Origin: Gemmatimonadota bacterium
GTDB taxonomy: Bacteria > Gemmatimonadota > Gemmatimonadetes > Gemmatimonadales > Gemmatimonadaceae
Assembly (NCBI GenBank): GCA_028287235.1
Contig: JAQBQB010000023.1
Span: forward strand, 1-64,000
Reading direction: 5' to 3'
DNA: 64,000 bases
Made by a program: the position numbers and the translations under genes. Numbering within the stretch: the first letter of the stretch is position 1; each line of letters starts with the position of its first letter. A model generated the notes under the pieces. The model was not told where the DNA came from. It made no database searches and saw only the letters and a program-made list of their open reading frames with translations. This document shows, piece after piece, positions 1,967 through 44,256 of this stretch.

Positions 1967-2827
1967 TCAACGCGTTTCCAGTCCTTTAGAGATCACATAA
2001 AACGCCCGCTCGCTCACCGGATGCCGGTACACGCCGAGCACCGTGTAGCCGTGCGCCATCGCCCAGCGAAAGTGCTCGCGCACGCTCATCCGCCAGATCT
2101 TCGCGTCGGCCCGCGACCGTTCGAGCACCTCGAGCATGTCGGTGGGAATCTCGATGAGCGCAACGTCGGGCTGTCGGTCGCCAATCGATAGCACGTCGTC
2201 ATCCGGCCGCGCGAACGCGGTGAGGACGGGCAGGTCGCCGGTAGGCAGTACGAGCGGCGGCACCTCGCGCGGTACGGTGTGGAGGCGCACCACCAGCCGG
2301 TCGGTTGCCATGCCGAGGTGCAGCGGGCTTTCCGTCGTGCCGTACATGTCCGGCACGTACTCGGCGATCGCTCCGCCGAGCTTGTTGAGATTGAGGTAGG
2401 CGTTCTTGGCCATGAGCGGATCGAACGACCAATAGATCCGCTCCACTCCGAGCGCGGCCATCGTGGCGCGCTGGTATTCCTTGAGCATGCGGCCCAGCCC
2501 GAGATTTCGCGCCGAGTCGCGCACGCCGAGCTGGTGCGACCAGTGCGATAGCACGCCGTCGCGAATGCCGGTGATGCCGAAGACGAAGCCGAGCAGCGTG
2601 CCGTGCGCGTCGAACGCGCCCGCCACGAGCCCGCCGACGTACTCCACGACGTGCAGCAGCGTCGTCGGCACGATCTCCGACTGGCCGCGTCCCCACACGT
2701 CGCGCTGCAGCTCGACGCAGGCGTGGAGATCCTCCGTGGAGCGGAGCGGACGAATGTGCACGTCCGCACCGGTCACGTCGGCGGTGAGGACGGCGGGCGA
2801 CGGATCGGTTCTGAGAGAGTCAGCCAC
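1967..2827 (-). CDS. GNAT-family acyltransferase (COG3375-like)
   Basis: 286 residues. The first half is a GNAT N-acyltransferase domain: strand IRPLRSTEDLHACVELQRDVW, then WSHQLGVRDSARNLGLGRML, the acyl-CoA pyrophosphate-binding turn, followed by a helix and IYWSFDPLMAKNAYLNLNKLG. The C-terminal half is the extra domain typical of the COG3375 group. GTG start at 2827, four bases after the stop of the S9 peptidase gene, so it is the last gene of the minus-strand SusC/SusD operon. In the known D-to-L amino acid route of Geobacillus, a GNAT succinyltransferase works with an N-succinylamino acid racemase. The first gene of this operon encodes such a racemase-family enzyme, so a D-amino acid N-succinyltransferase role is a reasonable inference. 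The substrate cannot be read from the sequence. Confidence 0.75.
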   Translation of the reverse strand: MADSLRTDPSPAVLTADVTGADVHIRPLRSTEDLHACVELQRDVWGRGQSEIVPTTLLHVVEYVGGLVAGAFDAHGTLLGFVFGITGIRDGVLSHWSHQLGVRDSARNLGLGRMLKEYQRATMAALGVERIYWSFDPLMAKNAYLNLNKLGGAIAEYVPDMYGTTESPLHLGMATDRLVVRLHTVPREVPPLVLPTGDLPVLTAFARPDDDVLSIGDRQPDVALIEIPTDMLEVLERSRADAKIWRMSVREHFRWAMAHGYTVLGVYRHPVSERAFYVISKGLETR

Positions 2828-2830
2828 GGC

Positions 2831-5020
2831 TCAACGGCTCGACACGTTTCTGTTCCACAGATAGCGCTGGAGGAAGCTGTCCATGCGCGCGAAGGTGTAG
2901 AGCCACCGCTTGTGCAGCAGCGTCTCATGCGTGTCGTCGGGATTGACGATGAGCTCGAAGTACACGTTGCGGGCGCGCAGCAGTTCGACGAGTCCGATCG
3001 TCTGTGAGAACTCCACGTTGCGGTCGTCGTCGTTGTGCCAGATGAGCACGGGCGACTTCCAGCCGTCGATCGCTGCGATGGCCGACGACTTGTACGACAC
3101 GTCGGCGGAGTCGAGCGAGTTGCCCCAGAGGTGCACGCCGGCCATGTCCACGCCGGCGGCGAACACGTCGGAGTTGCGCGCCAACGCCTGCGCCGTGAGC
3201 ACGCCGCCGTACGAGAGGCCCCAGATGCCAACGCGCGTGGGATCGACGTCAGGCCGCGACTGCAGATACTTTCCCGCCGCGATCACGTCGCGGTATTCCG
3301 CGTTGCCGCGTCCACCCGTATTGGCCGCGGTGCGGAACGACTTTCCGTAACCGACGCCCGAGCGGTAGTTCACCGAGATGACGACGTAGCCCTGGCTGGC
3401 CAGCCACTCGTTCACCGCGTAGGCGGTGTGATAAAAATCCATGTAGTGATAGCCGAGCAGCATCTGGCGAATCGGGCCGCCGTGCACGAAGACCACCGCG
3501 GGGCGGCGCTCGCCGGGCTTCAGATCCTTCGGCAGGAAAAGCTGGTTGTGGAACTCCACGCCGTCGTCAGCCTTGAGCACGACCGCCGCCGGAACTACCT
3601 GCGCAGCGGCGAGATACTCCTTGGTGAGCACCGGGAACACCAGCCGCTTCGCGCCACCGCTCACCGGCACGATGCCGACCGACATTGGCCGCGTGGCGGC
3701 CGACGTGAGCACGGCAACTTGTTTCCCGGACGCGAGCGGCGCGGGATACATCTCGATCTCGTCGCCCGTGGTGACTTGCGTCGCGGGGCCGCCCGAGGTC
3801 GGGACCATCCAGACGTGGCGGCGGTCGATGTCGCCCGCGTTGGTCGCGTAGAACAAGCGCTTGCCGTCGCTCGAGAGGTTGAGCGATTCGACGGCGCCAT
3901 TGCCCGGCGTCAGCTCCACCGGCGCGCCACCGCCGGCAACGCGCACGGCGTAGACGCGAATCCACTCTTCCGGCTCCTGCTGGAAGATGACGCTCTCGCC
4001 GGCCCAGGTGATGGCGGTGATGTTGGCGAAGGTCCGGTCGTTCGGCTGGTTGTGCCAGAACTCGCGCGCGCTGTCGAGCGCCGCGATGTCCGCGACCATG
4101 AGAGAAGTGGTATAGCCACCGCGGAACGCGGCGCGATACAGGCCGTCGACCGGACCCGTGCTGCCGCCCGCACCGCCGCGCGCGCCGCGGCCGCGGCCTT
4201 GTGCCGCGACGGGGCCGCCCGGGTTCCCGATGCTGCCGTTTCCTTCCTGCGCCTGCTGGCCGAACGGGGTGCCCGGACGGCGGATGAACGCGAGCTGCTT
4301 GCCGTCGCCCGACCACGTGGGACTCGCGTCGAAGTCGACGCCCGGCGCGACATACTCGACGTGATGCGTCTTCACGTCGTACACGCCGACGAACGAGTGG
4401 TTGTCGCGCAGGCTCACGAAGGCGAGCTTCGAGCCGTCGGGCGACCAGCGCGGGCTCGCGTTGCGTCCCCATTCCCGCACGAACGGCTGCTCCCCCTTGT
4501 CGATTGGCGCGGTGGCGCCCTGCGCCACGCGCAGCCGGTAAATCTGCCCCTCCTTCACGAACGCCACGGTCTGTCCGTCAGGCGACAGCGCGGGCGCGCT
4601 GCCCACGGCAAGGCGCCACGCACCGCTGCCGTTCGTGCGCGCCGCCCAGACGGCGCGCTCGCCGCCGTTCGCATTGCTCGACGGATTGGCGATCCACCCG
4701 ACCCGATTGGGCTCGCTGCCGCGCACGAAGGTCACGATCGACCCGTCGTCCGAGATGGACAGATCGGAGAGAATCACACCGTCGTCGTCGAGGAACTTGG
4801 TCAGCCGCACCGGCGCGAAACCCGGCGTGGCGGCCGCGTAGACGTTTCGCTGGCCGCGCTCGTACGAGAGCCAGGCGATGCGGTCCGCCTTCTTCGCCGA
4901 GACGAGATCCTGGGGAAACGCGGGGCTGAGATACGGTGCAACGCTCGTTGTCGTCTGGCCACGCGCGGCCGCGGCGATGACGATCGCGGGAATGAGCGTG
5001 CGTGCAATGCGAAGAGTCAC
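2831..5020 (-). CDS. Exported S9-family (prolyl oligopeptidase-type) peptidase
   Basis: 729 residues from the GTG at 5020, which has AGGAGA five bases upstream; the open frame continues further upstream but without coding character. The N-terminus is a signal peptide (RIARTLIPAIVIAAAARGQ). Residues about 30-430 form a TolB/WD40-like beta propeller with repeated SPDG-type turns (ALSPDGQTVAF, RWSPDGSKLAF, LSSDGKRLFY). The C-terminal 260 residues are an alpha/beta hydrolase domain with the nucleophile in GLSYGG (Ser603), the acid in NDDDRNV (about 665) and the His in DDTHE (698). A Gly/Arg-rich insertion lies near residue 290. The family cleaves short peptides, often after Pro or as dipeptidyl peptidases. 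It lies eight bases after the M23 gene in the SusC/SusD operon, consistent with periplasmic trimming of imported peptides. Confidence 0.88.
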   Translation of the reverse strand: MTLRIARTLIPAIVIAAAARGQTTTSVAPYLSPAFPQDLVSAKKADRIAWLSYERGQRNVYAAATPGFAPVRLTKFLDDDGVILSDLSISDDGSIVTFVRGSEPNRVGWIANPSSNANGGERAVWAARTNGSGAWRLAVGSAPALSPDGQTVAFVKEGQIYRLRVAQGATAPIDKGEQPFVREWGRNASPRWSPDGSKLAFVSLRDNHSFVGVYDVKTHHVEYVAPGVDFDASPTWSGDGKQLAFIRRPGTPFGQQAQEGNGSIGNPGGPVAAQGRGRGARGGAGGSTGPVDGLYRAAFRGGYTTSLMVADIAALDSAREFWHNQPNDRTFANITAITWAGESVIFQQEPEEWIRVYAVRVAGGGAPVELTPGNGAVESLNLSSDGKRLFYATNAGDIDRRHVWMVPTSGGPATQVTTGDEIEMYPAPLASGKQVAVLTSAATRPMSVGIVPVSGGAKRLVFPVLTKEYLAAAQVVPAAVVLKADDGVEFHNQLFLPKDLKPGERRPAVVFVHGGPIRQMLLGYHYMDFYHTAYAVNEWLASQGYVVISVNYRSGVGYGKSFRTAANTGGRGNAEYRDVIAAGKYLQSRPDVDPTRVGIWGLSYGGVLTAQALARNSDVFAAGVDMAGVHLWGNSLDSADVSYKSSAIAAIDGWKSPVLIWHNDDDRNVEFSQTIGLVELLRARNVYFELIVNPDDTHETLLHKRWLYTFARMDSFLQRYLWNRNVSSR

Positions 5021-5028
5021 GATGTCTC

Positions 5029-6144
5029 CTATTTCGGAAAGCGAACGAGCTCGTTCATTAATGGAATGCCGCGCTCGACGCCGACCGGCGCGTGACGCGA
5101 GCACTTGATCCCCGGTGTCGGGTTGCCGACGATGCCGCAGTTGCCGATGACGTCGAAGTGGTCGAAGCCATAGGGCACGCCTTCGGACGACAGGAACGTG
5201 GGACCGTCGGCGATCTGAAAGTGCACGTGCGGCTCCGTCGAGTTCCCGGAGTTGCCGAGCAGCGCCAGCACCTGGCCGCGCTTGACCCGATCGCCGACGT
5301 GCACCCGCAACGACCCCGGCTGGACGTGCGCGTACAGCGCGTAGTGTCCACCCCCGATGTCGAGCGCCACGTGGTTGCCGCCGACGGTTTCCATCGTAAT
5401 GGCGACCGCACGTGAATTCGCGCCGGGCACGTTCTGCGGAATGCTGTCCTTCGTGGCGACCACGATGCCGTCGGCGACGGCGAGGAGCTCGTGGCCGTAC
5501 GCGTAGTAGTTCTCGTTGCGCGACGGGTCGCCGTGGTGCGAGCTCCCCGTCGAATCGACTTGCAGGTAGTCGATCGCGAAGCGTTGTCCGATTGCCACTT
5601 GGCCGTCCAACGCCAACACGAGCCGCCGGTGGCCCGAGGCGTTCGACGGCCCGTTGAACGCCGCCCACTCGCCGCGAATCGGCGGCGTGATCACCACGGC
5701 GTTCCGCTCGACGGGAACGACCGTTCCCTCGAGCACGACCACGCTCGTGTCGCGCTGGAAGGTGAGCCGGTGTCGCAGCGCCGCCGGCGGATTATTCCGG
5801 TCGACTGGTATCCACAGATACATGTACGCACGCAGCCCGCCGCCGATCTGCGTCCGCTCGGCGGCGGGAATGGCGGGGGCCGGCCGCGCGAGCGCGCGCT
5901 GCAACGAGCTGTCGGCGGCGGAAAGATTCCAGATCACTCGCCCGCCCTTCGCCGCGTCGAACACCTCGACGCGCTTCAGGGTCAACGGGGTCGCCGTGAG
6001 ATTCGTGACGTGCAGCTCGTACGAGAGGAACGCACCCGAATCGCTCACCGCCACCGTCGGCGGCTTCGGGACGCGAAACTCGACGTTCGGTGGAATCTGC
6101 GCGCTGGCAGCGCGCGCAGAGACGAGCAGCAAGAGCGCTGTCAT
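5029..6144 (-). CDS. Exported M23-family (LytM) metallopeptidase
   Basis: 371 residues if started at the ATG at 6144. A short signal peptide (ALLLLVSARAASAQ) is followed by about 180 residues of beta-sandwich-like sequence and a C-terminal M23 domain. That domain shows the RNENYYAYG segment, LLAVADGIVV, HYALYAHVQPGSLRVHVGD and the zinc motif HVHFQ. M23 enzymes are usually peptidoglycan endopeptidases that cut stem-peptide cross-bridges. The start codon lies inside a REP-like palindrome (6140-6210); the reading frame stays open upstream through that repeat to a GTG at 6231 that overlaps the end of susD, so the true start is uncertain. The operon position after SusD and before S9 suggests a role in processing captured peptides or peptidoglycan pieces. 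Confidence 0.82.
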   Translation of the reverse strand: MTALLLLVSARAASAQIPPNVEFRVPKPPTVAVSDSGAFLSYELHVTNLTATPLTLKRVEVFDAAKGGRVIWNLSAADSSLQRALARPAPAIPAAERTQIGGGLRAYMYLWIPVDRNNPPAALRHRLTFQRDTSVVVLEGTVVPVERNAVVITPPIRGEWAAFNGPSNASGHRRLVLALDGQVAIGQRFAIDYLQVDSTGSSHHGDPSRNENYYAYGHELLAVADGIVVATKDSIPQNVPGANSRAVAITMETVGGNHVALDIGGGHYALYAHVQPGSLRVHVGDRVKRGQVLALLGNSGNSTEPHVHFQIADGPTFLSSEGVPYGFDHFDVIGNCGIVGNPTPGIKCSRHAPVGVERGIPLMNELVRFPK

Positions 6145-6210
6145 CCTGAGCGAGCCACGCGAGCGAAGGATCGGCCTGTTCGCGCAGCGATCCTTCGCTT
6201 CGCGCAGGAG
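6140..6210. repeat. REP-like palindromic repeat, copy 1 (degenerate)
   Basis: The left arm begins GTCATCCTGAGCG and continues to GAAGGATC; the right arm is GATCCTTCGCTTCGCGCAGG. The arms are imperfectly complementary, and the left arm carries an extra segment. A better-preserved copy with the same arm sequence is at 60441-60508. This copy sits between susD and the M23 gene and supplies the ATG used as the M23 start. Confidence 0.75.
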
Positions 6211-6227
6211 AACATCAAGCGTGTATT

Positions 6228-7502
6228 TCACGTTTTCGAGATGTTGGGATTGTTGACCCGCTCGACGTCGGGCAGCAGGAAGCAGGTTTGGTTGCCGTAT
6301 GTTCCGCCGGCCGGATACGCCGCGCCGGTGGCCGGGGCGAAGGCCAGGCCGTAGCGCCGCAGATCCCCAAGGCGATGTCCCTCGAGGAACAGCTCGCGAC
6401 GCCGCTCTTCGATGATCTGCGTCTTCACGTCCGCCGCGGTCTGGCCGGTCGACGAGTAGGCCGGCAGGCCTGCATGCGTGGCACGCGCCGCATTGATCGC
6501 CGCGGTTGCGCCGGCAATGTCGCCGGCCGTCACTTTCGCTTCGGCGACGATCAGTTGCGCCTCGGCGTAGCGCGCGACCGGCATCGCCGTGGTGAGTGAG
6601 GAATACTTGTCCGGCGTGAACATCTGCGCGCCGGGTGCCGTGCCGTTCTTGCCCGTGTTCGTCACGGCCACGCGAGAGTCGGCAGCGCCGTTCACCGTCA
6701 GACCGCGAAAGGTCGGGTCGACCGTGGCCCAGCTGCTCTGGTTGATCGAGATGAAGGAGAAGTTCTCGCGCCGCAGGTTGATCGCGTCGTTCGACGTGCC
6801 GACGACGAAGCTCGCGGAAATCGCCGCCGCGTCGGTGCCGGCCGCGGCGACGTTGCCGAGATCGAGCTGCGTGCGGGCGCGCCCCAGCGTTGCGAGGTTC
6901 AGCGTGGTGGCGTCGCTCGCGGCCGTCGCGGTGACGATCGCCGAGTCGAACCGAATTTTCGCTTCGGCAAAGAGCTGCGCCGGCGTCATCTCCGGTCCGA
7001 GGTTGATTGCCGCCGAGCACATGCCTTCGCCGAGGAGCACGAGGCTATAGCCCGCGTACGCGTACGACTGGCCAATCAGCTTCGTGCGGTTCACGCCGGT
7101 GGGCATCTGCGCGTCGGTCCAGCCTTTGAGCTTCGCGACGGCGGTGTCGGCCGAACGGCGCGCGATCGAGAGAGGCGTGTAGATCGGCGCCTGCTGGTTG
7201 TTGCCGCAGGTGGCGCTGCCGTACGCTTCGCTCGTCGCGATCGTGCGGCGATCGTAATTGAAGTTTGAGCCGGAGGAGATGGCATTCGCCAGCTCGTCGG
7301 TGAAGACGCCGGAGCCGACGACGTACCGCGAGAACGCGCACTCGAAATCGCCGATTGCACCATTGACGATGAGCGAGGCGTTAGCGGGCGTGTAGACGGT
7401 CGCGGTCGCGAGCGTTCCGGGATTGGACTGCGTGAGCGTGGTGAGGTCGCTGCAAGCGGCAACCGCCACCAGCGTTACGCCGAAGGCAAGAGTCTGTCGC
7501 AT
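6228..7502 (-). CDS. RagB/SusD-family outer-membrane lipoprotein
   Basis: 424 residues. The N-terminal lipoprotein signal has the lipobox VAAC (Cys17). The body has the TPR-like helices of SusD proteins and the closing segment EERRRELFLEGHRLGDLRRYG followed by YGNQTCFLLPDVERVNNPN, a hallmark of the family. SusD proteins cap the SusC channel on the cell surface and bind the ligand to be imported. Most characterised pairs import glycans, but some import peptides. The gene begins three bases after the SusC stop. It is a paralogue of the SusD at 24847-26127; both share a VN-AIGDFECA motif near residue 50. The neighbouring genes are all peptide or amino acid enzymes, which argues for a peptide ligand. 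Confidence 0.9.
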   Translation of the reverse strand: MRQTLAFGVTLVAVAACSDLTTLTQSNPGTLATATVYTPANASLIVNGAIGDFECAFSRYVVGSGVFTDELANAISSGSNFNYDRRTIATSEAYGSATCGNNQQAPIYTPLSIARRSADTAVAKLKGWTDAQMPTGVNRTKLIGQSYAYAGYSLVLLGEGMCSAAINLGPEMTPAQLFAEAKIRFDSAIVTATAASDATTLNLATLGRARTQLDLGNVAAAGTDAAAISASFVVGTSNDAINLRRENFSFISINQSSWATVDPTFRGLTVNGAADSRVAVTNTGKNGTAPGAQMFTPDKYSSLTTAMPVARYAEAQLIVAEAKVTAGDIAGATAAINAARATHAGLPAYSSTGQTAADVKTQIIEERRRELFLEGHRLGDLRRYGLAFAPATGAAYPAGGTYGNQTCFLLPDVERVNNPNISKT

Positions 7503-7505
7503 ACG

Positions 7506-10500
7506 TCACCAGGCGAAGTTGAAGGTCACGAGAAAGCGGGTGAGCGGCGGTGTCACGGCCTGATCGATGGCGCTCGAGGCGCCCGACGTGGTGATACCGC
7601 CCTCGGGATCGATGCCGTTGTACTTCGTCCAGGTGTGGAGCTCGCGCGCCGCGAAGGTGATCGACGCGGGGCCGGCGACGTGAAACAGGCGATTGGGCAG
7701 CGTGTACGTCGCCGACAGCTCGCGCAGCTTCACGAACGACGCGTCCTGCATGAATGCATCGAGCGTGTTCACCGCCAGTGCGCCACCCTGCGCCTCGGCG
7801 AGGTAGATCGGCGAGTACTTCTGCGGGAAATAGTTCGCCTCGCAAAGCGGAGCACCGGCCAACCCGAGGCAGCGGATTTCTTCATTCTGATTGAAGAGCC
7901 GGTTGCCGTGCTTGAAGTCGGTCAGCGCGTAGAAGCGCCACGACCGGCCTATCGTAAACGTGTTGGCAACGGCGCCGGTCAGCGTTGGCGTCGGTGAGCC
8001 GATGTACACGAAGGGCGCCGACGCGCAGGCGATCGGTGCGGCTCCCTTGTTGTCGCAGAGGACGTTCGTTGCCTGGCCGGTGGTCGCGTCGCGATCGGCC
8101 GAGACAACGCGGCGCGAGAACAACCCCTGGATCGGATAGCCCACGATGTTCGCCTGCCCCGCACTCGAGATGACGTTCGTGATGTTCGATTTGATCTCGT
8201 CGTGCATGGTCGTGAGGTTGCCGTTGATCGTCCACGAGAAGTTGCGGCGCGTGATCGCCTGGAGCGTGGACTGCAGCTCGAAGCCGGTGTTCACCACCTT
8301 GCCGAGATTGACGAACTGGTTCCCGGCAAATCCAGTCGACGGCGCGATCGCTTGATTCACGATCTCGTTCGCCGTGGTCTTGTTGTAGTGCGTGAGGTCG
8401 AGGCTGAGGCGATTGAACAGATTCGCCTCGAGTCCGAACTCGAGCTCCGTGGCGCGCTCGGGACGCAGGTCGGCGTTGCCGAGTTGGCCCGGCGTCACGG
8501 CGTTGGTTCCGCCCGGGCCGGTGACCGGAGTGAAGGTCTGCAGCGCGGAGAACGCGGTCGGCTGGCGGCCCGAGGCACCGTACGCGGCGCGGAGGCGCAG
8601 CGTGTTGACGGTGCTGGCCCACTTCCAGAAGGGCTCCTCGCTCACCACCCACGAGGCGCTCACTTTCGGATACGTCACCCACTTGAAGGACTGCCCGAAC
8701 GCGCTGTTGTTGTCCACGCGAAAGGCACCGACGAGAAAGAGCCGGTCGCGCCAGGCAAGCTGTTCTTGCGCGTAGCCGCCGATCGTCGTGTTGATCGTCT
8801 GCGTCTGGGTCGACGCGAGCGCCGTGGCCGCCGCCGACACGGTTTCGACGCCCTGCGCCGGGAAGCCGAGGCCACCCAGAAAACTCTGATTGAGCTCGGA
8901 GTTGTTGAATTGGCCGCCGACCGACGTCGCGCTCGAGAGTGCCGAGGTGATGTCGGCTTTCGCCGTTCCGGCGTAGTCGGCAGTGATCATCGTGGCGCGG
9001 CGGAGCGTCTGGCCGAGCCGGCCACCCGCCTGCGAGGCGGAGAGGAAGCTCGAGAGCGCCGGAGGTGCGAAGTGCTCGATCGCGCGCGCGTCCTCGCCGG
9101 TGTAGTCGAGACCGAGCACGCCGCGCTGCGTGAACCACGGCGTCAGTTGGTTGTTGATCGTCGTGCTGCCGGTGAACCGGTTGATGCCGCTCGCGTTGTC
9201 GTAGAGCGTTTGCGGGACGTCGGGTGGAAAGCCAGGATAGAACCCGCGCGCCGCAGGAAAGAGCAGGTTGTGGCCCGCAATCGCCCCGAGCAGCGCCGAG
9301 GCGCCGACGTCCGCACCGAGGTGGCTCGAGAGATCGACGAAGTTGAGGCTCGTCGCCACGTCGGTCTTGGTGCCAAGTGCCGTGCTCAGGTTCACGTGCG
9401 CGTTGAACTCACGCTGCAGATTGTTCGGCTCGATGCCATAGTCGTTCTGGTAGCCGACCGCGGCGTAGTAGCGCGTCTGGTCGCGACCGCCCTGCACCGA
9501 CGCGTTGTAGTGGCGCTCCATGCCGGTCTTGAACAGCGGATGACCGCTGTCCGCCTCCGCTTGCACGGCATTCCACGTGACGATGTTGCCCGCTTTGTCT
9601 TTGTCGTAGTTCGTGGGGACCCGGCCGGCCGCGTCGCGGAAGTACAGGGTGCCGCCCTGGAGCTGCGCGCGCACCTGCGCCTGATTTCCCGATCCCTTCT
9701 TCGTGATGATCTGGATGACGCCGTTCGCGGCCTCGGTACCATAGATGGTCGCCGCGGCCGGTCCCTTGATCACCTCGATGCTCTCGATGTCGTCGGGGCT
9801 GATGTCGTTCAACCGGTTCGCAACCGCCGCGCCCTGCGTTCCCAATCCGCCCGCGCCGCTCGGTCCCTGCGCGACGGCGCTGTTGATTCGCACGCCGTCG
9901 ATGTAGATGAGCGGCGTGTTGCTCAGACCGATGCTGCTCGGCCCGCGAATCTGGACGTTCGGGCCCGCGCCGATGCGACCGCTCACCGGAAGAATGTCCA
10001 CGCCCGCCGCGCGCGAGCGCAGCAGGTTGCCCATATCCGGCGCCGCGGACTTGGACAGCTCGGCGGCCGCGTCGATCGTTGCGACCGCGTTACCGATCGA
10101 GCGCCGTTCCGTTTCACCCGCGGTGCCGGTAACGACGACCTGGTCGAGCGCGACGGCGCTCACCTGCAGCGCCGCGTTGACTGTCGTCTCCTGGCCGGCG
10201 ACGATGGTGACCGGCCGCCGCGAGGAGGCGTAGCCGAGCCGCAGCACGATGATCGTGTGCGTGCCGGTGGGCACATTGGCGATCCGATACCGTCCGTCTT
10301 CTCCGGTAGCTCCGCCAAGACGTCCGCCTTCGACCTGCACGCTCGCGTTCGGTACGCCGTCACCCGAGCGCGCGTCGGTCACGCGACCGACGATCGTTCC
10401 GGATTGCGCTTGCGCGAACGCGCGCGACGGCGCCACGAGCATGTATGCGGCTCCGACGAGGAGCCACGCCGAGATCAGAAGCCTGCGATACAGGCGCCGA

Positions 10501-10517
10501 TCGACTCGAATGCACAT
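7506..10517 (-). CDS. SusC/RagA-family TonB-dependent outer-membrane transporter
   Basis: 1003 residues from an ATG preceded by GGAGGG. A signal peptide ends near AFAQ. Residues about 40-120 are a carboxypeptidase-regulatory-like domain (GTIVGRVTDARSGDGVPNAS), followed by the TonB-interacting segment DQVVVTGT and a plug domain with LIYIDGVRIN and the signature DIESIEVIKGPAAATIYGTEAANG. The remainder is a beta barrel that ends in aromatic FNFAW, as expected for Bam-dependent insertion. It works with the SusD encoded next to it to pull large substrates across the outer membrane using TonB energy. It lies 40 bases downstream of the amino acid permease gene, so the outer and inner membrane steps are probably co-transcribed. 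Confidence 0.92.
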   Translation of the reverse strand: MCIRVDRRLYRRLLISAWLLVGAAYMLVAPSRAFAQAQSGTIVGRVTDARSGDGVPNASVQVEGGRLGGATGEDGRYRIANVPTGTHTIIVLRLGYASSRRPVTIVAGQETTVNAALQVSAVALDQVVVTGTAGETERRSIGNAVATIDAAAELSKSAAPDMGNLLRSRAAGVDILPVSGRIGAGPNVQIRGPSSIGLSNTPLIYIDGVRINSAVAQGPSGAGGLGTQGAAVANRLNDISPDDIESIEVIKGPAAATIYGTEAANGVIQIITKKGSGNQAQVRAQLQGGTLYFRDAAGRVPTNYDKDKAGNIVTWNAVQAEADSGHPLFKTGMERHYNASVQGGRDQTRYYAAVGYQNDYGIEPNNLQREFNAHVNLSTALGTKTDVATSLNFVDLSSHLGADVGASALLGAIAGHNLLFPAARGFYPGFPPDVPQTLYDNASGINRFTGSTTINNQLTPWFTQRGVLGLDYTGEDARAIEHFAPPALSSFLSASQAGGRLGQTLRRATMITADYAGTAKADITSALSSATSVGGQFNNSELNQSFLGGLGFPAQGVETVSAAATALASTQTQTINTTIGGYAQEQLAWRDRLFLVGAFRVDNNSAFGQSFKWVTYPKVSASWVVSEEPFWKWASTVNTLRLRAAYGASGRQPTAFSALQTFTPVTGPGGTNAVTPGQLGNADLRPERATELEFGLEANLFNRLSLDLTHYNKTTANEIVNQAIAPSTGFAGNQFVNLGKVVNTGFELQSTLQAITRRNFSWTINGNLTTMHDEIKSNITNVISSAGQANIVGYPIQGLFSRRVVSADRDATTGQATNVLCDNKGAAPIACASAPFVYIGSPTPTLTGAVANTFTIGRSWRFYALTDFKHGNRLFNQNEEIRCLGLAGAPLCEANYFPQKYSPIYLAEAQGGALAVNTLDAFMQDASFVKLRELSATYTLPNRLFHVAGPASITFAARELHTWTKYNGIDPEGGITTSGASSAIDQAVTPPLTRFLVTFNFAW

Positions 10518-10557
10518 CCATCCCTCCAGTGAGTGAATACGCTACGACTGCTTGACG

Positions 10558-11919
10558 TCAGGGAGCTACGACGGACTCGGTGGAGGCCGCGCGCCGCGAG
10601 CGCGCGCGCCAGAGATAGAACGCGGGCGTGCCCAACAACACCGCGCAGATGCCGATGAATGCCTGCCGCGGCTGTTCGCGCATCGTGTTCAACACGAGCG
10701 CCGCGGCGGCGATCGCGAACAGCAAAGGCGTCACGGGATAACCCGGAGTGCGGAACGGCCGAACGGCGTTCGGCTCCCGCTTGCGCGACGGGAAGATGCT
10801 GAGCGCCCCGAGGCCGTAAAAAATCCAGCCGGCGAATACGACGTAGGTGAGCAGCTGCTCGAACGTTCCGCTCGCCGCGAGCAGCGCGGCCCACCCGGCG
10901 AGGAGCACGATCGCCGGCGCCGGCGTGCCGAAGCGCGGGCTGATGGATGCAAGGCGCGAGAAGAACACGCCGTCGCGCGCCATCGAGTAGTAGAGGCGCG
11001 GCGCGGTCATCATCAGGCCGTTCGCCGCGCTGAAGATCGAGATGAGCACCAGCACGCTGAGCAGCTTGCCGGACAGCGATCCGAAGATCGCCGCGGTCGC
11101 GTCGGCGGCGATGTGATCGCTCTTGCCCGCCGCGGCAACGCCGATCGCGGCCACGTAGCCGGCGTTCGCGACGAGATACAGAACGATCAGCGCGAACGTC
11201 GCCACCGCGATCGACCGCGGAAAAACGCGCTGCGGATCTTTCGTCTCGCCCGCGGAGAAGGTCACGTACTGCCAACCTTCGTACGCCCAGAGCACGCCGA
11301 TCATGGCCGTACCCATGCCGGCGAACACCGAGCCGCCGAGCGCGGCGGGAAAGAGCGCGCCGGTGTTCTGCCATCCGTGCCCCATCGCGATGAGCGCAAC
11401 GCTGATGGCGAGCAGTCCCAACACCTTGGCCGACGTCGTCAGGTTCTCCAGCGACGCGCTCTCGCGCGTGCCGCGCACATTGACGAAGGCGATGATGGCG
11501 ATCATCACCACCGAGACGAGCTTCGCGCTCGTGGGGCCGATGGGAAGCAACTGTCCAAGATAGGCGGAGAAGGCCACGGCGAGCGCCGCGATCGAGCCGC
11601 TGGCGATGACGAGGATGCTCGTCCAGCCGTACAGAAAGGCCGGCAGCGGGCCGAAGGCGTCGCGGATGTACGTATACAACCCGCCCGCGTCCGGCTTCAT
11701 CGCGCCCAGCTCGGCGTAGGTCAAGGCGCCGAGAAAGGAGACGAAGCCGCCGATCACCCAGACGAGCAGCGCGATGCCGAGGTAGCCGTTCGTCTGCCGC
11801 AGCACGACACCCGGCACGATGAAGATGCCCGAGCCAATGACCGTGCCAAGCGTGAGCAGTATGAGATCTGTGAACCCCAGGGTGCGGCGAAGCGATCCGT
11901 CGCCGGATGCGTGCGTCAT
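10558..11919 (-). CDS. APC-superfamily amino acid permease
   Basis: 453 residues with about twelve membrane segments. The first helix carries the APC signature GTVIGSGIFIVPG and the second half contains GLMMTAPRLYYSMARDGVFF, both typical of LAT-type amino acid transporters and exchangers. Substrate specificity cannot be read off. The ATG at 11919 overlaps the stop of the upstream racemase-family gene (ATGA), so the two are coupled. Encoded between an amino acid racemase and SusC/SusD, it probably brings amino acids freed in the periplasm into the cytoplasm. Confidence 0.9.
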   Translation of the reverse strand: MTHASGDGSLRRTLGFTDLILLTLGTVIGSGIFIVPGVVLRQTNGYLGIALLVWVIGGFVSFLGALTYAELGAMKPDAGGLYTYIRDAFGPLPAFLYGWTSILVIASGSIAALAVAFSAYLGQLLPIGPTSAKLVSVVMIAIIAFVNVRGTRESASLENLTTSAKVLGLLAISVALIAMGHGWQNTGALFPAALGGSVFAGMGTAMIGVLWAYEGWQYVTFSAGETKDPQRVFPRSIAVATFALIVLYLVANAGYVAAIGVAAAGKSDHIAADATAAIFGSLSGKLLSVLVLISIFSAANGLMMTAPRLYYSMARDGVFFSRLASISPRFGTPAPAIVLLAGWAALLAASGTFEQLLTYVVFAGWIFYGLGALSIFPSRKREPNAVRPFRTPGYPVTPLLFAIAAAALVLNTMREQPRQAFIGICAVLLGTPAFYLWRARSRRAASTESVVAP

Positions 11920-13061
11920 ACCGGTACCGCCGCGCGGGCCGCACTCAGGGTCTCGGTGCGCACGGTGAGCGACTCGATGTAGTCGGCATCGACGTCCACG
12001 CCGAGGCCGGGCCGGTCGCGCGGCACCTTGACCAAGCCGTCGGCGCCCATCGTCCACTCGGGGCTCACGACGTCCCGCGTCCAGTAGCGTGCGCTGGGAC
12101 TCAGGTCGCCCGGCATCGAGAAGTTGGGAAGCGACGCGAGCGCCACGTTGTACGCCCGGCCAACGCCGCTCTCGAGCATCCCGCCGCACCACACGGGAAT
12201 GCCGGCCTCCTGGCAGACGTCGTGGATCGCTTTCGACGCGGAGAACCCGCCGACGCGGCCCGGCTTGATGTTGATGATCCGCCCGCACTGGAGGGCGATC
12301 ATGTCGCGGGCGCGCGAGACGTCGATGATGGATTCGTCGAGACAGAGCGGCGTGCGTAGCTGCCGTTGCAGCTCGGCGAGCTGCAACAGCGCGTCGGCGC
12401 CGAGCGGCTGCTCGAGCATGAGCAGCTCGAACTCGTCGAGCTGGAGGAGATGCGGCGCGTCGCCGATGGAGTAGGCGGCGTTTGCGTCGGCCATGATCTC
12501 CACGTCCGGCCCCAGGGCGGCGCGCACGGCGCGCACGTACTCGACGTCCTGCCCCGGTTGAATCTTGAGCTTGACCTTGCGATAGCCCGCGGCGACGGCG
12601 GCGAGCGCACGCTCGACCAGCAACTCCGGCGAACGCTGGATCCCGAGCGAGATGCCGGTGGGCACGCGCTCGCGTGTTCCGCCGAGGACGAGCGTGAGCG
12701 GACGCTGCTCGATCTCGGCGGTCAGCCCCCAGCAGCCCATCTCGAGCGCCGCCTTGGCCATGTTGTGGCCGCGGATGTCCTGCGCGAGGAGGTCGTGGAC
12801 GACGGCGGGCCCGGTGAGCCGCCGGCCGAGCAGGCGCGGGGCGAGCCATTCGCGAATCGCGAGCCAAGCGGTATCGATCGTTTCCGGCGTGTAGTTCGGC
12901 AGCGCCGGCGCGACACACTCGCCCCACACCATGGCGCCATCGCGATCGGTAATCTCGAGGAGGAGGATGCGGCGGACGGATTCGACGCCGGACGAGATGC
13001 GGAAGGGCTCTTTGAGCGCGAGGTGGATCTCGCGAAGCGTGATACGATCGATACAGAACAT
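11916..13061 (-). CDS. menC: N-acylamino acid racemase / o-succinylbenzoate synthase family enzyme
   Basis: 381 residues, enolase superfamily. Visible catalytic elements are the KxK motif in YRKVKLKI, the metal ligands in MADANAAYS, LEQPL and LDESI, and the second catalytic Lys in NIKPGRVGG. The segment GIPVWCGGMLESGVGRA followed by NVALASLPNF is very close to what I recall of Amycolatopsis NSAR/OSBS. Members of this family are bifunctional or specialised. The menC role belongs to menaquinone synthesis, while the racemase role turns N-succinyl-D-amino acids into the L-forms. No other men gene is nearby, and the operon is full of peptide genes with a GNAT acyltransferase at its end, so the racemase role is favoured here. 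The ATG at 13061 was chosen at the domain boundary; the frame is open further upstream. It is the first gene of the operon, 127 bases from a GntR-type operator. Confidence 0.85.
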   Translation of the reverse strand: MFCIDRITLREIHLALKEPFRISSGVESVRRILLLEITDRDGAMVWGECVAPALPNYTPETIDTAWLAIREWLAPRLLGRRLTGPAVVHDLLAQDIRGHNMAKAALEMGCWGLTAEIEQRPLTLVLGGTRERVPTGISLGIQRSPELLVERALAAVAAGYRKVKLKIQPGQDVEYVRAVRAALGPDVEIMADANAAYSIGDAPHLLQLDEFELLMLEQPLGADALLQLAELQRQLRTPLCLDESIIDVSRARDMIALQCGRIINIKPGRVGGFSASKAIHDVCQEAGIPVWCGGMLESGVGRAYNVALASLPNFSMPGDLSPSARYWTRDVVSPEWTMGADGLVKVPRDRPGLGVDVDADYIESLTVRTETLSAARAAVPV

Positions 13062-13187
13062 CGGGATCGGCGCCGAAGGGTAAGGGAGGGACGGCGGGGG
13101 ACGTCGCGATCGAGCGGGGGCAAGTAGAAGGCGAGCGGGAATGGCGTGCCCAACGTAATACCCGGCGGTGCTGCGCGATAGACCATT

Positions 13188-13211
13188 TTGGTATACCGGT
13201 TTGTGCCAGAG
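13188..13211 (-). promoter_or_regulatory. GntR-type operator in the racemase operon promoter region
   Basis: The 11 bases TTGGTATACCG (13188-13198, plus strand) contain the perfect palindrome GGTATACC, the shape of FCD-type GntR operators. The same 11 bases occur in reverse orientation at 14155-14165. Read toward the racemase gene, the context is GCAC, four bases, CGGTATACCAA, then AT; the second site reads GCAC, five bases, CGGTATACCAA, then TAT. This parallel layout suggests a shared promoter-operator design, although the -35 and -10 boxes at this copy are weak. Confidence 0.6.
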
Positions 13212-13219
13212 AGACGCGC

Positions 13220-14113
13220 GTGTTACGTGCCGCCCGCTTGCCAGCGCTTTGGCCGGACCGTAGCTTGGCTCTCGTGCCCGCATCGCCAACTGGCCGCGCC
13301 AAGACGCCGCCCACCCCCGCTGTCTCACGATCGGCCAACGGCTCGAAGTCCGCAGCGAGCGACGGTCCGGTCGACAACGTCACGCGCGTCTACAATGAGC
13401 TGCGCGCGCTGATCATCTCGGGCCAGCTGCCCCCCGGTGCGCGGATCGCCGAGCGCGCGGTCGTCGACCGGATGGGGCTGAGCCGAACGCCCGTTCGCAG
13501 CGCCCTCCATCGGCTCCAACAGGAAGGGCTCGTCGCGTCGGTCGGCCGGGCTGGCGACCAACGGCTCATCGTCACGCCGCTCACGCGAGGCGACGGGCGC
13601 GAGGTTTTCCTCATTGTCGGACACTTGGAAGGACTGGCGGCCCGCGAGGCAGCGTCGCTTCCGACCGAGGCGCGGAAACAGTTGGTCCGCCGCCTGCGCG
13701 AGGTGAACAAGGAGCTGTCCGTCGCCTCCAAGGCGAAGGCGCCCCCGGCCAAGCTGTTCGCCCTCGATCTGCAGTTTCACGAAACGTATGTCGAAGGCGT
13801 GGCCGGTCCGCGGGTGGTGGCCCTCCATCGCGCAATCAAGCCACAGAGCGAACGCTACGCGCGGCTCTACGTCAACGTGCTCCTGGCCGAGTTGCCGACG
13901 TCGGTGAAGGAGCACGAGGCGATCGCCACGGCGATCGGCAAGGGCGACCCGCGTTCCGCGCAGCACGCCGTCGAGACGAACTGGCACAATGCGGCGGCGC
14001 GGCTGTCGGAGGTCATCGCCGAACACGGCGAACGCGGGATCTGGCATCTGTGGGACGCCGGCACCGACGGGGCCGCGGCCAAGGCGCGGCCGCCGAAGAC
14101 CCGCGCGCGATAG
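13220..14113 (+). CDS. GntR-family (FCD/FadR-type) transcriptional regulator
   Basis: 297 residues from the GTG at 13220, which has GAGAG seven bases upstream; a GTG at 13274 is an alternative. After a low-complexity N-terminus comes a winged-helix domain: VYNELRALIISGQLPPGARI, then DRMGLSRTPVRSALHRLQQEG, the recognition helix of GntR proteins. The C-terminal half is the all-helical FCD effector domain (LQFHETYVEGV, SVKEHEAIATAI, AVETNWHNAAARL). FCD regulators respond to small organic acids or amino acids and usually repress nearby genes. Palindromic operators lie on both sides of the gene, in front of the divergent racemase operon and of the downstream tricorn gene, so it most likely controls both units. 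Confidence 0.87.
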   Translation: MLRAARLPALWPDRSLALVPASPTGRAKTPPTPAVSRSANGSKSAASDGPVDNVTRVYNELRALIISGQLPPGARIAERAVVDRMGLSRTPVRSALHRLQQEGLVASVGRAGDQRLIVTPLTRGDGREVFLIVGHLEGLAAREAASLPTEARKQLVRRLREVNKELSVASKAKAPPAKLFALDLQFHETYVEGVAGPRVVALHRAIKPQSERYARLYVNVLLAELPTSVKEHEAIATAIGKGDPRSAQHAVETNWHNAAARLSEVIAEHGERGIWHLWDAGTDGAAAKARPPKTRAR

Positions 14114-14143
14114 GGCCGACCCGGACGGCGTCTCACGGCGTGC

Positions 14144-14171
14144 TTGCACTACTTCGGTATACCAATATAGT
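14144..14171 (+). promoter_or_regulatory. Promoter with GntR-type operator in its spacer, for the tricorn gene
   Basis: A -35-like TTGCAC at 14144-14149 and a -10-like TATAGT at 14166-14171 are separated by 16 bases. The spacer contains CGGTATACCAA (14155-14165), the reverse complement of the site at 13188-13198. A repressor bound here would block the polymerase directly. The start codon of the tricorn-type protease follows 43 bases after the -10 box. Confidence 0.6.
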
Positions 14172-14214
14172 ATGCCGAGTCTGCCGTTCCCTCCGTCACC
14201 TCGGGAGTCGTCCC

Positions 14215-17200
14215 ATGTTCCGTCGCGCGCCCGCCCTCCTCGTCGGTCTGTCCCTGGCCGCGTCCGCGGCCGTCGCCCCGGCCCAGGGCACCCGGCTCCT
14301 CCGCCATCCGACGATCAACGGCAACGCCATCGCCTTCGAGTATGGCGGCGACCTCTGGGTAACGACCCGCGCCGGCGGCGCGGCGCGCCGCCTCACCGCC
14401 ACGCCCGACGTCGAGACCGACCCACAGTTCTCCCCCGACGGCTCGCTCGTCGCCTTCACGCGAACCGCGGCCGGCAATACCGACGTCTACGTCGTGTCCG
14501 CCGCGGGCGGTGAGCCGCGCCGGCTCACCTATCATCCCGGCGTGGACCGCGTCCGCGGCTGGACGCCCGACGGCAAGCGGATCGTCTTCGCCTCCGATCG
14601 CGCGAGCGCGCCGCAGGCCGCCTATCTGCGCCTCTTCACGATACCGGCCACGGGCGGCGTCGAGGAGCCGCTCCCGATGCCGCGGGCGTTCACCGGTACG
14701 TATTCGCCCGACGCGCGCCGCTTCGCGTACGAGGAAATCTCCACCGTATTCATTCCCGCATGGTACGAGGCGAGCATGTGGCGTCACTACCGCGGCGGCC
14801 GAACGCATCCGGTGCGGATCATGGATCTCGCAAGCTATGCCGTCGAGAAGCTGCCCTGGAAGGACAGCAACGACAGCGATCCGATGTGGGTGGGTAGCAC
14901 CGTCTACTTCCTCTCCGACCGCAACTTCGTTACGAACCTCTTCTCCTACGACCTCGGCACGAAACAGCTCAAGCAGGTCACGCATCACGACGACGCCGAC
15001 ATCATGACCGCGTCGGCCGGCTCCGACGCGATCGTCTACGAGCAGGGAGGCACGCTCCATCTGTTCGACGCGAAGTCCGGCCAGGACCGCGCGCTCCAGA
15101 TCGACGTCGTCGGCGATTTCCCCTGGGCCCGGCCGCAGCTCAAACGCGTGGGGAGCATGATCCGCGAGGCGTCGCTCTCGCCCACCGGCGTGCGCGCCGC
15201 CTTCGAGGCGCGCGGCGACATCTTCACCGTGCCGGCCGACAAGGGCGACTATCGCAACCTGTCCAAGACGCCCGGCGCGCACGACCGCAATCCGGTGTGG
15301 TCGCCCGACGGGACACAGCTCGCGTGGTTCTCCGACGCGAACGGCGAAGATCGCCTCATGATCGGCGACCAGCTCGGCCTCACGCCGGCGCGAGCGATCG
15401 CGCTGCCGGCCACCGCCTACTTCTCGAATCTCTCATGGTCGCCGAACGGCAAGACGCTGGTCACCGACGACAACCATCTGAGCCTCTGGACGATCGACGT
15501 CGCCAGCGGACGCGCGACCAAGCTCGATAGCGACACTTACGCCACGCCCGGCCGCGACTTGGACGCTACCTGGTCGCCCGACTCGCGGTGGATCGCCTAC
15601 TCGAAAAGCCTCGACAGCCACCTGCGCGCAATCTTCGTCCGCTCGCTCGCCGACGCCCAGTCGAAGCAGCTCACCGACGGACTGGCCGACGCCATCTCGC
15701 CGGCGTTCGACGCGAGCGGAAAGTATCTCTACTTCCTGGCGAGCACGGATTACGGTCCGCGCACCGGCTGGGTCGAGATGAGCGCCGTCGACCGCCCGGT
15801 GCGCCGCTCGGTCTACCTCGCCGTGCTCTCGGCCGGCGAGCCGTCGCCGCTGCTTCCGGAATCGGGCGACGAGGCCGCCGGCCCCGTGCCTCCGAAGTCG
15901 AAGCCCGACTCGGTCGTCCGCATCGACCTCGCCGGCATCAATCAGAGAATTCTCAGTCTCGAAGTTCCGCCGGGCGATTACAACAGTCTCACCGCCGGTC
16001 CGGCGGGCATGGTGTTCTACACCGAGCCGGGGCTCGACGTCACCGGGCGCGGCGGCGCGGGCCTTCGCCTGCAGCGCTACCAGCTCAAGGATCACGCGGC
16101 CGCGACGTTCCTCGACGGCGTTCGCTCCTACACCTTGTCCGGCGACAGGAAGAAGCTGCTGTACTCGGCCGGCGGCGGCGCTGGCGCGCGCTGGGGCATC
16201 GTTCCCACCGCCGGCCCGGCAAAGGTCGGCGACGGAGCCGTCAACGTGGCGCAGCTCGAGAGCTGGGTGGACCCGCGCGCGGAATGGGCCGAGATCTTCC
16301 GCGAGTCGTGGCGCAACCAGCGCGACTTCTTCTACGATCCCAAGATGCACGGCGCCGACTGGCAGGCGGTGTCGGCCAAGTACACGCCGCTCCTACCGTA
16401 CGTGAATCACCGCTCCGATCTGGGCTACCTCATCGCGCAGACCGGCGGAGAGCTGGTCGTGGGCCACTCGTATCTCGCCGGCGCCGGCGACGTGCCGAGC
16501 GACCCGCCGGTCGCCGTAGGCCTCCTGGGAGCCGACTACACGGTGGAGAACGGACACTATCGCATCCATCACGTCTACACCGGCGAAAACTGGAATCCGG
16601 AGCTGCGCGCCCCACTCAGCGCGCCGGGCATTCAGGTGACCGAGGGCGACTATCTACTCGAGGTCAACGGCCGGCCCATCGCGCCACCGATGAACGTGTT
16701 CCAGGTCTTCGAGGGCACGGCCGGCCACCAGACCGTGCTGCGCGTGAACAGCACGCCGTCGGCTGAAGGCTCGCGGCTCGTGACCGTCGTGCCGACGCCG
16801 AGCGAAGATGCGCTCCGCACGCGCGCGTGGATCGAAGACAATCGTCGCAAAGTCGACGAGCTGTCGGGAGGCAAGCTGGCGTACGTCTGGCTGCCGAACA
16901 CGTCGATTCCCGGCTACACCGCGTTCACACGATACTTCTACGCGCAGCAGGACAAGGATGGCGCGGTGATCGACGAGCGGTACAACGAGGGCGGGCTCGT
17001 CGCCGACTACATCGTCAATGAGCTGGATCGAAAGCCGATGGGCTACTTCGCATTGCGCGGCGGCAAGTCGTGGACGAGTCCCGGCGCGGGCATCTTCGGA
17101 CCGAAGGTGATGCTGATCAACGAATCCGCCGGCTCGGGCGGCGACGCGCTGCCGTACTATTTCCAGATCCGTCATATCGGCCCGCTCGTTGGCACGCGGA

Positions 17201-17487
17201 CATGGGGTGGTCTCGTGGGCACCACGGGCGTTCCGCCGACGATCGACGGCGGCGGGATCACGGCTCCGGGCTTGGCATTCTATGACTCTCAGGGACGTTG
17301 GGCGATCGAGAATGAAGGCATCGCGCCCGACATCGAGGTGGAGAACACCGCCGCCGACGTCATCAAGGGACATGATCCGCAGCTCGAGCGCGCCGTACGC
17401 GAGGCGCTCAGGCTGCTCGAGCAGAGTCCTGTGAAGCACCTCGCCAGGCCGGTGCCGATCGACCGGGCGTCGAAGAAGCCGAACTGA
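14215..17487 (+). CDS. Exported tricorn-type S41 protease
   Basis: 1090 residues from the ATG at 14215, with GGGAG about eight bases upstream. A signal peptide (ALLVGLSLAASAAVAPAQG) is followed by two stretches of beta-propeller repeats (QFSPDGSLVAF, VWSPDGTQLAWF, TWSPDSRWIAY), a PDZ domain near residues 760-850, and the C-terminal S41 core. The tricorn catalytic residues are recognisable: His in VVGHSYLAG and Ser974 in NESAGSGGDALPYYF, with the acidic NEGIAPDIEV segment after it. Tricorn proteases degrade oligopeptides to short products. This one is predicted to be periplasmic because of the signal peptide, unlike the archaeal cytosolic enzyme. It follows the GntR gene behind its own operator-bearing promoter. 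Confidence 0.88.
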   Translation: MFRRAPALLVGLSLAASAAVAPAQGTRLLRHPTINGNAIAFEYGGDLWVTTRAGGAARRLTATPDVETDPQFSPDGSLVAFTRTAAGNTDVYVVSAAGGEPRRLTYHPGVDRVRGWTPDGKRIVFASDRASAPQAAYLRLFTIPATGGVEEPLPMPRAFTGTYSPDARRFAYEEISTVFIPAWYEASMWRHYRGGRTHPVRIMDLASYAVEKLPWKDSNDSDPMWVGSTVYFLSDRNFVTNLFSYDLGTKQLKQVTHHDDADIMTASAGSDAIVYEQGGTLHLFDAKSGQDRALQIDVVGDFPWARPQLKRVGSMIREASLSPTGVRAAFEARGDIFTVPADKGDYRNLSKTPGAHDRNPVWSPDGTQLAWFSDANGEDRLMIGDQLGLTPARAIALPATAYFSNLSWSPNGKTLVTDDNHLSLWTIDVASGRATKLDSDTYATPGRDLDATWSPDSRWIAYSKSLDSHLRAIFVRSLADAQSKQLTDGLADAISPAFDASGKYLYFLASTDYGPRTGWVEMSAVDRPVRRSVYLAVLSAGEPSPLLPESGDEAAGPVPPKSKPDSVVRIDLAGINQRILSLEVPPGDYNSLTAGPAGMVFYTEPGLDVTGRGGAGLRLQRYQLKDHAAATFLDGVRSYTLSGDRKKLLYSAGGGAGARWGIVPTAGPAKVGDGAVNVAQLESWVDPRAEWAEIFRESWRNQRDFFYDPKMHGADWQAVSAKYTPLLPYVNHRSDLGYLIAQTGGELVVGHSYLAGAGDVPSDPPVAVGLLGADYTVENGHYRIHHVYTGENWNPELRAPLSAPGIQVTEGDYLLEVNGRPIAPPMNVFQVFEGTAGHQTVLRVNSTPSAEGSRLVTVVPTPSEDALRTRAWIEDNRRKVDELSGGKLAYVWLPNTSIPGYTAFTRYFYAQQDKDGAVIDERYNEGGLVADYIVNELDRKPMGYFALRGGKSWTSPGAGIFGPKVMLINESAGSGGDALPYYFQIRHIGPLVGTRTWGGLVGTTGVPPTIDGGGITAPGLAFYDSQGRWAIENEGIAPDIEVENTAADVIKGHDPQLERAVREALRLLEQSPVKHLARPVPIDRASKKPN

Positions 17488-17510
17488 CCGCATTCTCCGC
17501 CGGAGCTCTC

Positions 17511-35061: not shown

Positions 35062-35090
35062 ATTGTACACCACAATGGTCCACCACGCAA
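35062..35090 (-). promoter_or_regulatory. Sigma70-like promoter for the eight-gene SusC/SusD operon
   Basis: On the minus strand TTGCGT (35090-35085) and TACAAT (35067-35062) are separated by exactly 17 bases. Transcription would begin near 35055, about 45 bases before the first start codon at 35011. This is the best consensus match I found in the window and explains expression of 35011-20024 as a unit. Confidence 0.6.
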
Positions 35091-44112: not shown

Positions 44113-44256
44113 AAAAGCAGGGGCTAGGGTTTGGGGTTTAGGGTCTAGGGAAGGTACGTCGCGCCTTTGGCGCGACTTGATGGGTGGACCTTTCGGCATC
44201 CCCATACCGCACACCTTCCCTACACCCTATACCCGATACCCTAGCCCCTGGGTTTT
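44113..44256. repeat. Inverted repeat with telomere-like GGGTTTA arms and a central hairpin
   Basis: The left arm (44113-44155) contains GGGGCTAGGGTTTGGGGTTT and continues to GGGAAGGT. The right arm (44213-44256) is its imperfect complement. In the middle, GTCGCGCC (44158-44165) and GGCGCGAC (44169-44176) make a perfect stem with a three-base loop. The right arm overlaps the last codons and stop of the class-A-like hydrolase gene. Probably a REP-like or MITE-like element; it may also end transcription. Confidence 0.7.

Follow-up and report, generated by a model that had tools for sequence, protein, structure and literature searches.

We analysed a 64,000-nucleotide stretch of DNA from a soil-type Gemmatimonadota bacterium (GCA_028287235.1, contig JAQBQB010000023.1, positions 1 to 64,000; the window hereafter), and focused on a seven-gene minus-strand operon running from 13061 down to 1967. 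Its genes encode, in order, an enzyme of the N-succinylamino acid racemase/o-succinylbenzoate synthase (NSAR/OSBS) subfamily, an APC permease, SusC, SusD, an M23 peptidase, an S9 peptidase and a GNAT acyltransferase, with junctions of -4, 40, 3, 84, 8 and 3 bp. Judging from sequence comparisons, we consider it likely that this operon serves the assimilation of D-amino acids (as D-peptides) with D-to-L conversion, through the full series of steps proposed below. The genes, their order and families, their conservation and co-occurrence, the absence of the men pathway and the recurrence of an operator-like motif were all computed directly. A sequence-only reading of the same DNA had placed an NSAR/OSBS-type gene first and a GNAT gene last, so that two of the three steps of such a route shared one operon with a permease and M23 and S9 peptidases; the coordinates and families bear out every one of these placements, and the NIKPGRVGG and KVKLK motifs it had named occur in the protein, in alignment with the Amycolatopsis NSAR's catalytic lysines.

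The NSAR-type, GNAT and M20D genes

The best NCBIfam model for the first gene product is TIGR01928, named o-succinylbenzoate synthase (308.5 bits, cut-off 200.65), and annotated records automatically label racemases of this kind "menC, o-succinylbenzoate synthase". Among solved structures, the window enzyme is closest to the N-acylamino acid racemases from Amycolatopsis (1sja, E 2.2e-92), Deinococcus (1r0m) and Thermus (2zc8), at E-values of 1e-88 to 1e-92 for the three, with which it has in common the catalytic lysines, the metal ligands and a second-shell arginine equivalent to Amycolatopsis R266; unlike them, it sits in a men-less genome and an apparent D-peptide uptake setting. The catalytic set (K164, K166, D192, E217, D242, K266 and R269) is intact, and these residues are retained in 96 to 97 of 97 GNAT-adjacent relatives. 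We propose that the window enzyme is, by role, an N-acylamino acid racemase. Two other assignments were rejected: the enzyme scored far under the curated cut-offs for L-Ala-D/L-Glu (dipeptide) epimerase (66 of 500 and 60 of 343 bits) and for the N-acetyl-D-Glu racemase DgcA (103 of 400 bits). Elsewhere in the genome, a third MR_MLE enzyme (L006 9658-10734, G000:C19) scored best against DgcA, at 235 of 400 bits, and appears near to an N-acetyl-D-Glu racemase or dipeptide epimerase. MR_MLE enzymes of about 40% identity were also seen in GNAT-less futalosine genomes of order-level relatives (family f2, L211-L213), where they lie in a different conserved cluster and carry other binding-site residues, with T at the position of G291.

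The last gene of the operon gave no Pfam or NCBIfam match of its own, and its product gave no match by sequence against the PDB. An AF2 model built from a 60-sequence alignment (pLDDT 92.7) has a GNAT fold over residues 21-188, with a structural match to Ard1 (Z 16.0, 148 aligned, root-mean-square deviation 1.7, residues 22-185); the model is nearest to N-terminal acetyltransferases, and residues 189-286 are barely covered by the fold test. On this predicted structure, we assign the gene to the GNAT superfamily. By sequence, the protein also matches the GNATs of M20-GNAT-menC cassettes in Lysinibacillus and Priestia (E 1e-27 to 1e-34) and, across annotated plasmids of Lysinibacillus, Streptomyces, Priestia and Deinococcus ficus, at E 1e-21 to 1e-35. 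On contig C6, the genome has a third GNAT gene (L013, G000:C6:82000-101999, 8621-17800); no racemase gene accompanies it, and it is placed between two S15 hydrolase genes and those of a SusC/SusD pair.

A paralogous GNAT-NSAR pair on contig C4 of the same genome (racemase 65% and GNAT 43% identical to the window copies, with the C4 GNAT matching PF00583) is followed directly by an M20D-type amidohydrolase, which scores 339 bits against TIGR01891 (cut-off 154) and has YxeP and IAA-amino acid hydrolases as its nearest solved relatives. We propose that this M20D would supply the third step. The same family is present inside the orthologous operons L165, L168 and L172, of which the first reads GNAT, racemase, M20D, APC, D-aminoacylase-like, SusC, SusD, M23, D-aminoacylase, S12. 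A locus from the same genus (L167) follows the window plan with one extra S12 gene, and this retention of gene order in a congeneric genome argues that the arrangement is not due to chance. In the racemase tree, the window copy clusters with operon-borne copies of relatives (99% SH-aLRT), and that of C4 falls among copies from other cassettes. The D-to-L route suggested by the sequence-only reading is supported by GNAT-NSAR linkage, GNAT-NSAR-M20D cassettes, the lack of a men pathway and a common motif, but its choice of the M20 at 56194 as third enzyme does not hold, as at E 1e-4 that protein shows no relation to the M20D of the cassettes, and its gene lies outside the operon. Succinyl, the acyl group that its Geobacillus comparison implied, is one candidate beside acetyl.

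Linkage between the two genes extends well beyond this genome. Across a sample of 150 Gemmatimonadota genomes (racemase presence called at >=45% identity), GNAT was found in 85 and the racemase in 90: 84 genomes have both, 1 has only GNAT, 6 have only NSAR and 59 have neither (Fisher p 1.5e-33, uncorrected for shared ancestry). Most racemase copies (72/92) lie within 5 kb of a GNAT gene, all on the same strand and with GNAT first in 63. Outside the phylum, a GNAT profile retrieved 80 loci, which come from named records and span at least five phyla, including Acidobacteriota, KSB1, Chloroflexota, Alphaproteobacteria (Brucella, Paracoccus) and others, and 59 of these have a racemase within 3 kb, sometimes with overlapping genes. 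In a cultured relative, Gemmatirosa kalamazoonensis, NSAR and GNAT genes are both carried by replicon NZ_CP007130. On annotated plasmids, Lysinibacillus and Streptomyces have the order M20-GNAT-menC, Deinococcus ficus has menC-SBP-GNAT-M20, and the M20...GNAT-menC arrangement of Priestia is less compact; in Deinococcus radiodurans, the plasmid-borne racemase adjoining GNAT is not the copy solved as 1r0m.

Operator-like motif and the neighbouring D-aminoacylase operon

The motif ACCATTNTGGTATACC adjoins the GntR/FCD gene divergent from the operon, with the exact match ACCATTTTGGTATACC between the racemase and GntR genes, and a GntR homologue is likewise divergent from the GNAT/NSAR operon in relatives. 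Scanning the whole genome gave seven sites with at most two mismatches: 13182, 14156 and 35064 in the window, two between the C6 GNAT and divergent S15-SusCD genes, one (C7:25920-25935; L227, L249) 55 bp upstream of a lone S12-fold gene that may also belong to the regulon, and one within a gene of no evident relation to these. Sites with three mismatches fall mostly within genes. L165, L167 and L171 have the motif in their matching GntR-flanked region, and L085, L173, L178 and L179 have variants of it. The tricorn-like protease gene downstream of the GntR gene is syntenic in L165 and L167, and its L165 orthologue has a one-mismatch site upstream. Over 1.87 Mb of relatives' loci, nine sites with at most two mismatches were found, eight of them at GntR or tricorn promoters, and the reversed pattern gave none. 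We infer binding from this pattern, with the GntR/FCD protein probably acting at ACCATTNTGGTATACC; from its recurrence at the tricorn-like protease, the C6 GNAT locus and the D-aminoacylase operon, D-peptide uptake and D-to-L conversion seem to belong to a single regulon.

The D-aminoacylase operon (34987-20024, minus strand) encodes an S15 hydrolase, three S12-fold hydrolases, a second SusC/SusD pair, a D-aminoacylase and a PBP4, and includes the superfamilies of both the D-aminoacylase 1rjp and the S12 D-peptidases (4y7p, alkaline D-peptidase). Compared with those enzymes, the members encoded here would be upstream suppliers and not conversion enzymes. Signal-like N-termini were found on the hydrolases and on none of the racemase, GNAT and M20D (simple hydropathy test, not SignalP), a split that fits release outside the cytoplasm and conversion inside.

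Proposed conversion route and its alternatives

The D-to-L amino acid pathway of Geobacillus kaustophilus, reportedly described by Sakai et al. in 2006, is said to combine a GNAT acyltransferase, an NSAR/OSBS-subfamily racemase and an M20 amidohydrolase. All three families occur in this genome, the homologues compared being those of Bacillaceae plasmids and not Geobacillus sequences. GNAT and racemase genes are linked in the window, but here they bracket a SusC/SusD-permease-peptidase operon, the M20D lies at another locus, and a GntR/FCD-associated site ties the operon to that of the D-aminoacylase, S12 and PBP4 proteins.

From these genes we infer substrates, stereospecificities, flux direction and regulation as follows. 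SusC/SusD would import peptides across the outer membrane, and the exported M23 and S9 peptidases, together with the neighbouring D-aminoacylase, PBP4, S12 and S15 proteins, would release D-amino acids or short fragments, which the APC permease would carry into the cytoplasm. There, the GNAT would acylate the D-amino acid (with a succinyl or acetyl group), the NSAR-type enzyme would turn the N-acyl D form into the N-acyl L form and back, and the M20D of C4, taken to be L-specific, would strip the acyl group, pulling conversion toward the L-amino acid. The GntR/FCD protein, acting at the motif, would control the tricorn-like protease, the C6 GNAT/SusCD locus and both the window operon and that of the D-aminoacylase.

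An enzyme whose best model is named o-succinylbenzoate synthase, from a subfamily known as promiscuous, could instead be the menaquinone OSBS (MenC), placed in a SusCD operon by chance. One genome fits such a role: in G016, which is without a GNAT of this family and without PF02621, a 58% relative of the window racemase adjoins menE, menA and menB (L205, G016:C26:569000-582000, 6157-10639), and this relative is probably a genuine OSBS, providing a natural control. The window genome (5.73 Mb, 31 contigs, listed completeness 100%) differs, with no menD (best 30 bits, cut-off 244.2) or menB (150 bits, cut-off 342.7) over cut-off and with two PF02621 genes (MqnA/MqnD-type, futalosine route) at about 225 bits. 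The situation that the sequence-only reading had set against its own proposal, namely that this is the only OSBS gene in a menaquinone-making genome, thus does not arise here, and the window "menC" is therefore not needed for menaquinone. Among the 150 genomes, menD exceeds its cut-off in 45 and PF02621 is present in 99, with no genome having both, which agrees with a reported preference of Gemmatimonadales for the futalosine pathway (PMC9426454). NSAR is present in 44 of these 99 futalosine-pathway genomes, none of which has menD, and 43 of the 44 also have GNAT. With two copies of the enzyme in the window genome, one of them in a GNAT-M20D cassette, the MenC explanation is already largely refuted, and we leave it the very slightest of chances. 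A related pattern calls for care in reading: in menD-bearing genomes of family f5 (L189-L199), racemase copies not next to GNAT adjoin glutamate-carboxypeptidase-type M20 and oxidase-like genes, with no men-cluster context seen, and the association of a missing adjacent GNAT with the presence of menD may therefore be a lineage effect.

Two further alternatives keep the N-acyl chemistry and change its purpose. In a reverse route, L-amino acids would be acylated and racemised, and deacylation by D-aminoacylase would yield D-amino acids for wall editing or signalling; D-aminoacylase genes do lie in or beside these operons, but the enzyme has a signal-like N-terminus that would put it outside the cytoplasm, unlike GNAT, NSAR and M20D, and the presence of importers and peptidases speaks for uptake. 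The conserved cassette, moreover, has as its third gene a member of the M20D/aminoacylase family, in which the best-known enzymes have N-acyl-L-amino acids as substrates, and we regard this route as quite improbable. Somewhat less so, yet still unlikely, is that the racemase salvages imported N-acyl amino acids, with the GNAT as a side partner that, for example, detoxifies D-amino acids or amines. Such a role would suit the broad N-acyl group acceptance of NSAR enzymes (PMC7431475), some f5 genomes in which NSAR stands beside an M20-type enzyme and not GNAT, and the C6 GNAT without a neighbouring NSAR, but in several phyla GNAT and NSAR genes are tightly paired, and often touch or overlap, which argues for consecutive steps.

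Several points weigh against D-amino acid assimilation with D-to-L conversion as the function of the operon. The M20D gene is absent from the window operon itself, and the genome motif scan gave no close operator-like site at the C4 cassette. The co-occurrence counts and their Fisher p value carry no correction for shared ancestry. Within the NSAR/OSBS subfamily, active-site residues do not separate NSAR from OSBS, and we rejected them as a discriminator, as the men-cluster copy of G016 keeps the same residues. Finally, the acyl donor of the GNAT may be succinyl or acetyl, and neither donor nor acceptor can be read from sequence.

Separately from these loci, the window also encodes an adjacent APC permease, kynureninase-like enzyme and class A beta-lactamase-like protein (44241-47670, minus strand).

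Table 1 Genes and operator-like sites of the window operon, its regulator and the neighbouring D-aminoacylase operon
Feature	Position	Strand	Evidence
NSAR/OSBS-subfamily enolase enzyme, proposed N-acylamino acid racemase; operon gene 1	11916..13061	-	TIGR01928; PDB 1sja/1r0m E 1e-90 to 1e-92; catalytic residues
APC amino acid permease	10558..11919	-	PF13520 E 1e-51; 4 bp overlap with racemase gene
SusC/RagA TonB-dependent outer-membrane importer	7506..10517	-	TIGR04056, 422 bits, above cut-off
SusD-like lipoprotein	6228..7502	-	PF07980 E 4e-18; lipobox VAAC
M23 metallopeptidase	5029..6144	-	PF01551 E 5e-15; signal-like N-terminus
S9-family (DPP-like) peptidase, predicted exported	2831..5020	-	PF00326 E 7e-32; signal-like N-terminus
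GNAT acyltransferase, proposed D-amino acid N-acyltransferase; last operon gene	1967..2827	-	AF2 GNAT fold; homology to Bacillaceae cassette GNATs
Operator-like site ACCATTTTGGTATACC, between racemase and GntR genes	13182..13197	+	Exact motif match
Divergent GntR/FCD regulator; start codon uncertain, 13220 or 13274	13274..14113	+	PF00392, PF07729
Operator-like site, 2 mismatches, upstream of tricorn-like protease	14156..14171	-	Genome motif scan
Tricorn-like protease, predicted exported (beta-propeller and C-terminal peptidase region); putative regulon member	14215..17487	+	TolB-propeller match
PBP4-type D-Ala-D-Ala carboxypeptidase/endopeptidase	20024..21616	-	TIGR00666 177 bits (cut-off 107.8)
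D-aminoacylase-type amidohydrolase, predicted exported	21616..23250	-	PDB 1rjp E 2e-66; signal-like N-terminus
S12 (beta-lactamase/AmpH/D-peptidase fold) hydrolase, predicted exported	23261..24841	-	PF00144 E 1e-60; PDB S12 including alkaline D-peptidase
Second SusD and SusC	24847-26127 (SusD), 26148-29123 (SusC)	-	tblastn to first pair, 43% and 37% identity
Two S12-fold hydrolases	29165-31627, 31629-33107	-	Second: AmpH/class C and PDB S12 matches; both: tblastn to S12 gene
CocE/NonD (S15) hydrolase, first gene of D-aminoacylase operon	33125..34987	-	TIGR00976 262 bits, above cut-off
Operator-like site, 2 mismatches, 77 bp upstream of S15 gene heading D-aminoacylase operon	35064..35079	-	Genome motif scan

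Implications for D-amino acid use

Cell-wall D-amino acids and D-peptides make up a large nitrogen pool in soils and sediments, and most surveys of their use target oxidases, dehydrogenases and pyridoxal phosphate (PLP) racemases. The label "menC, o-succinylbenzoate synthase" hides the proposed D-to-L pathway. The conversion chemistry itself is known from Geobacillus; the genomic setting and the regulon appear to be new. Whether Gemmatimonadota possess a full D-peptide utilisation regulon, in which one GntR/FCD protein and ACCATTNTGGTATACC join import, exported D-hydrolases and cytosolic conversion, with D-amino acids as a regular nutrient and an OSBS-subfamily enzyme kept only together with GNAT in men-less lineages, is in our estimate evenly balanced. 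If this is true, many menC annotations in futalosine-pathway genomes would be wrong in role, and the operator would tie D-peptide import to D-to-L conversion. The disjoint sets of menD and mqn genomes offer a natural experiment on the retention of a promiscuous OSBS/NSAR enzyme for either role.

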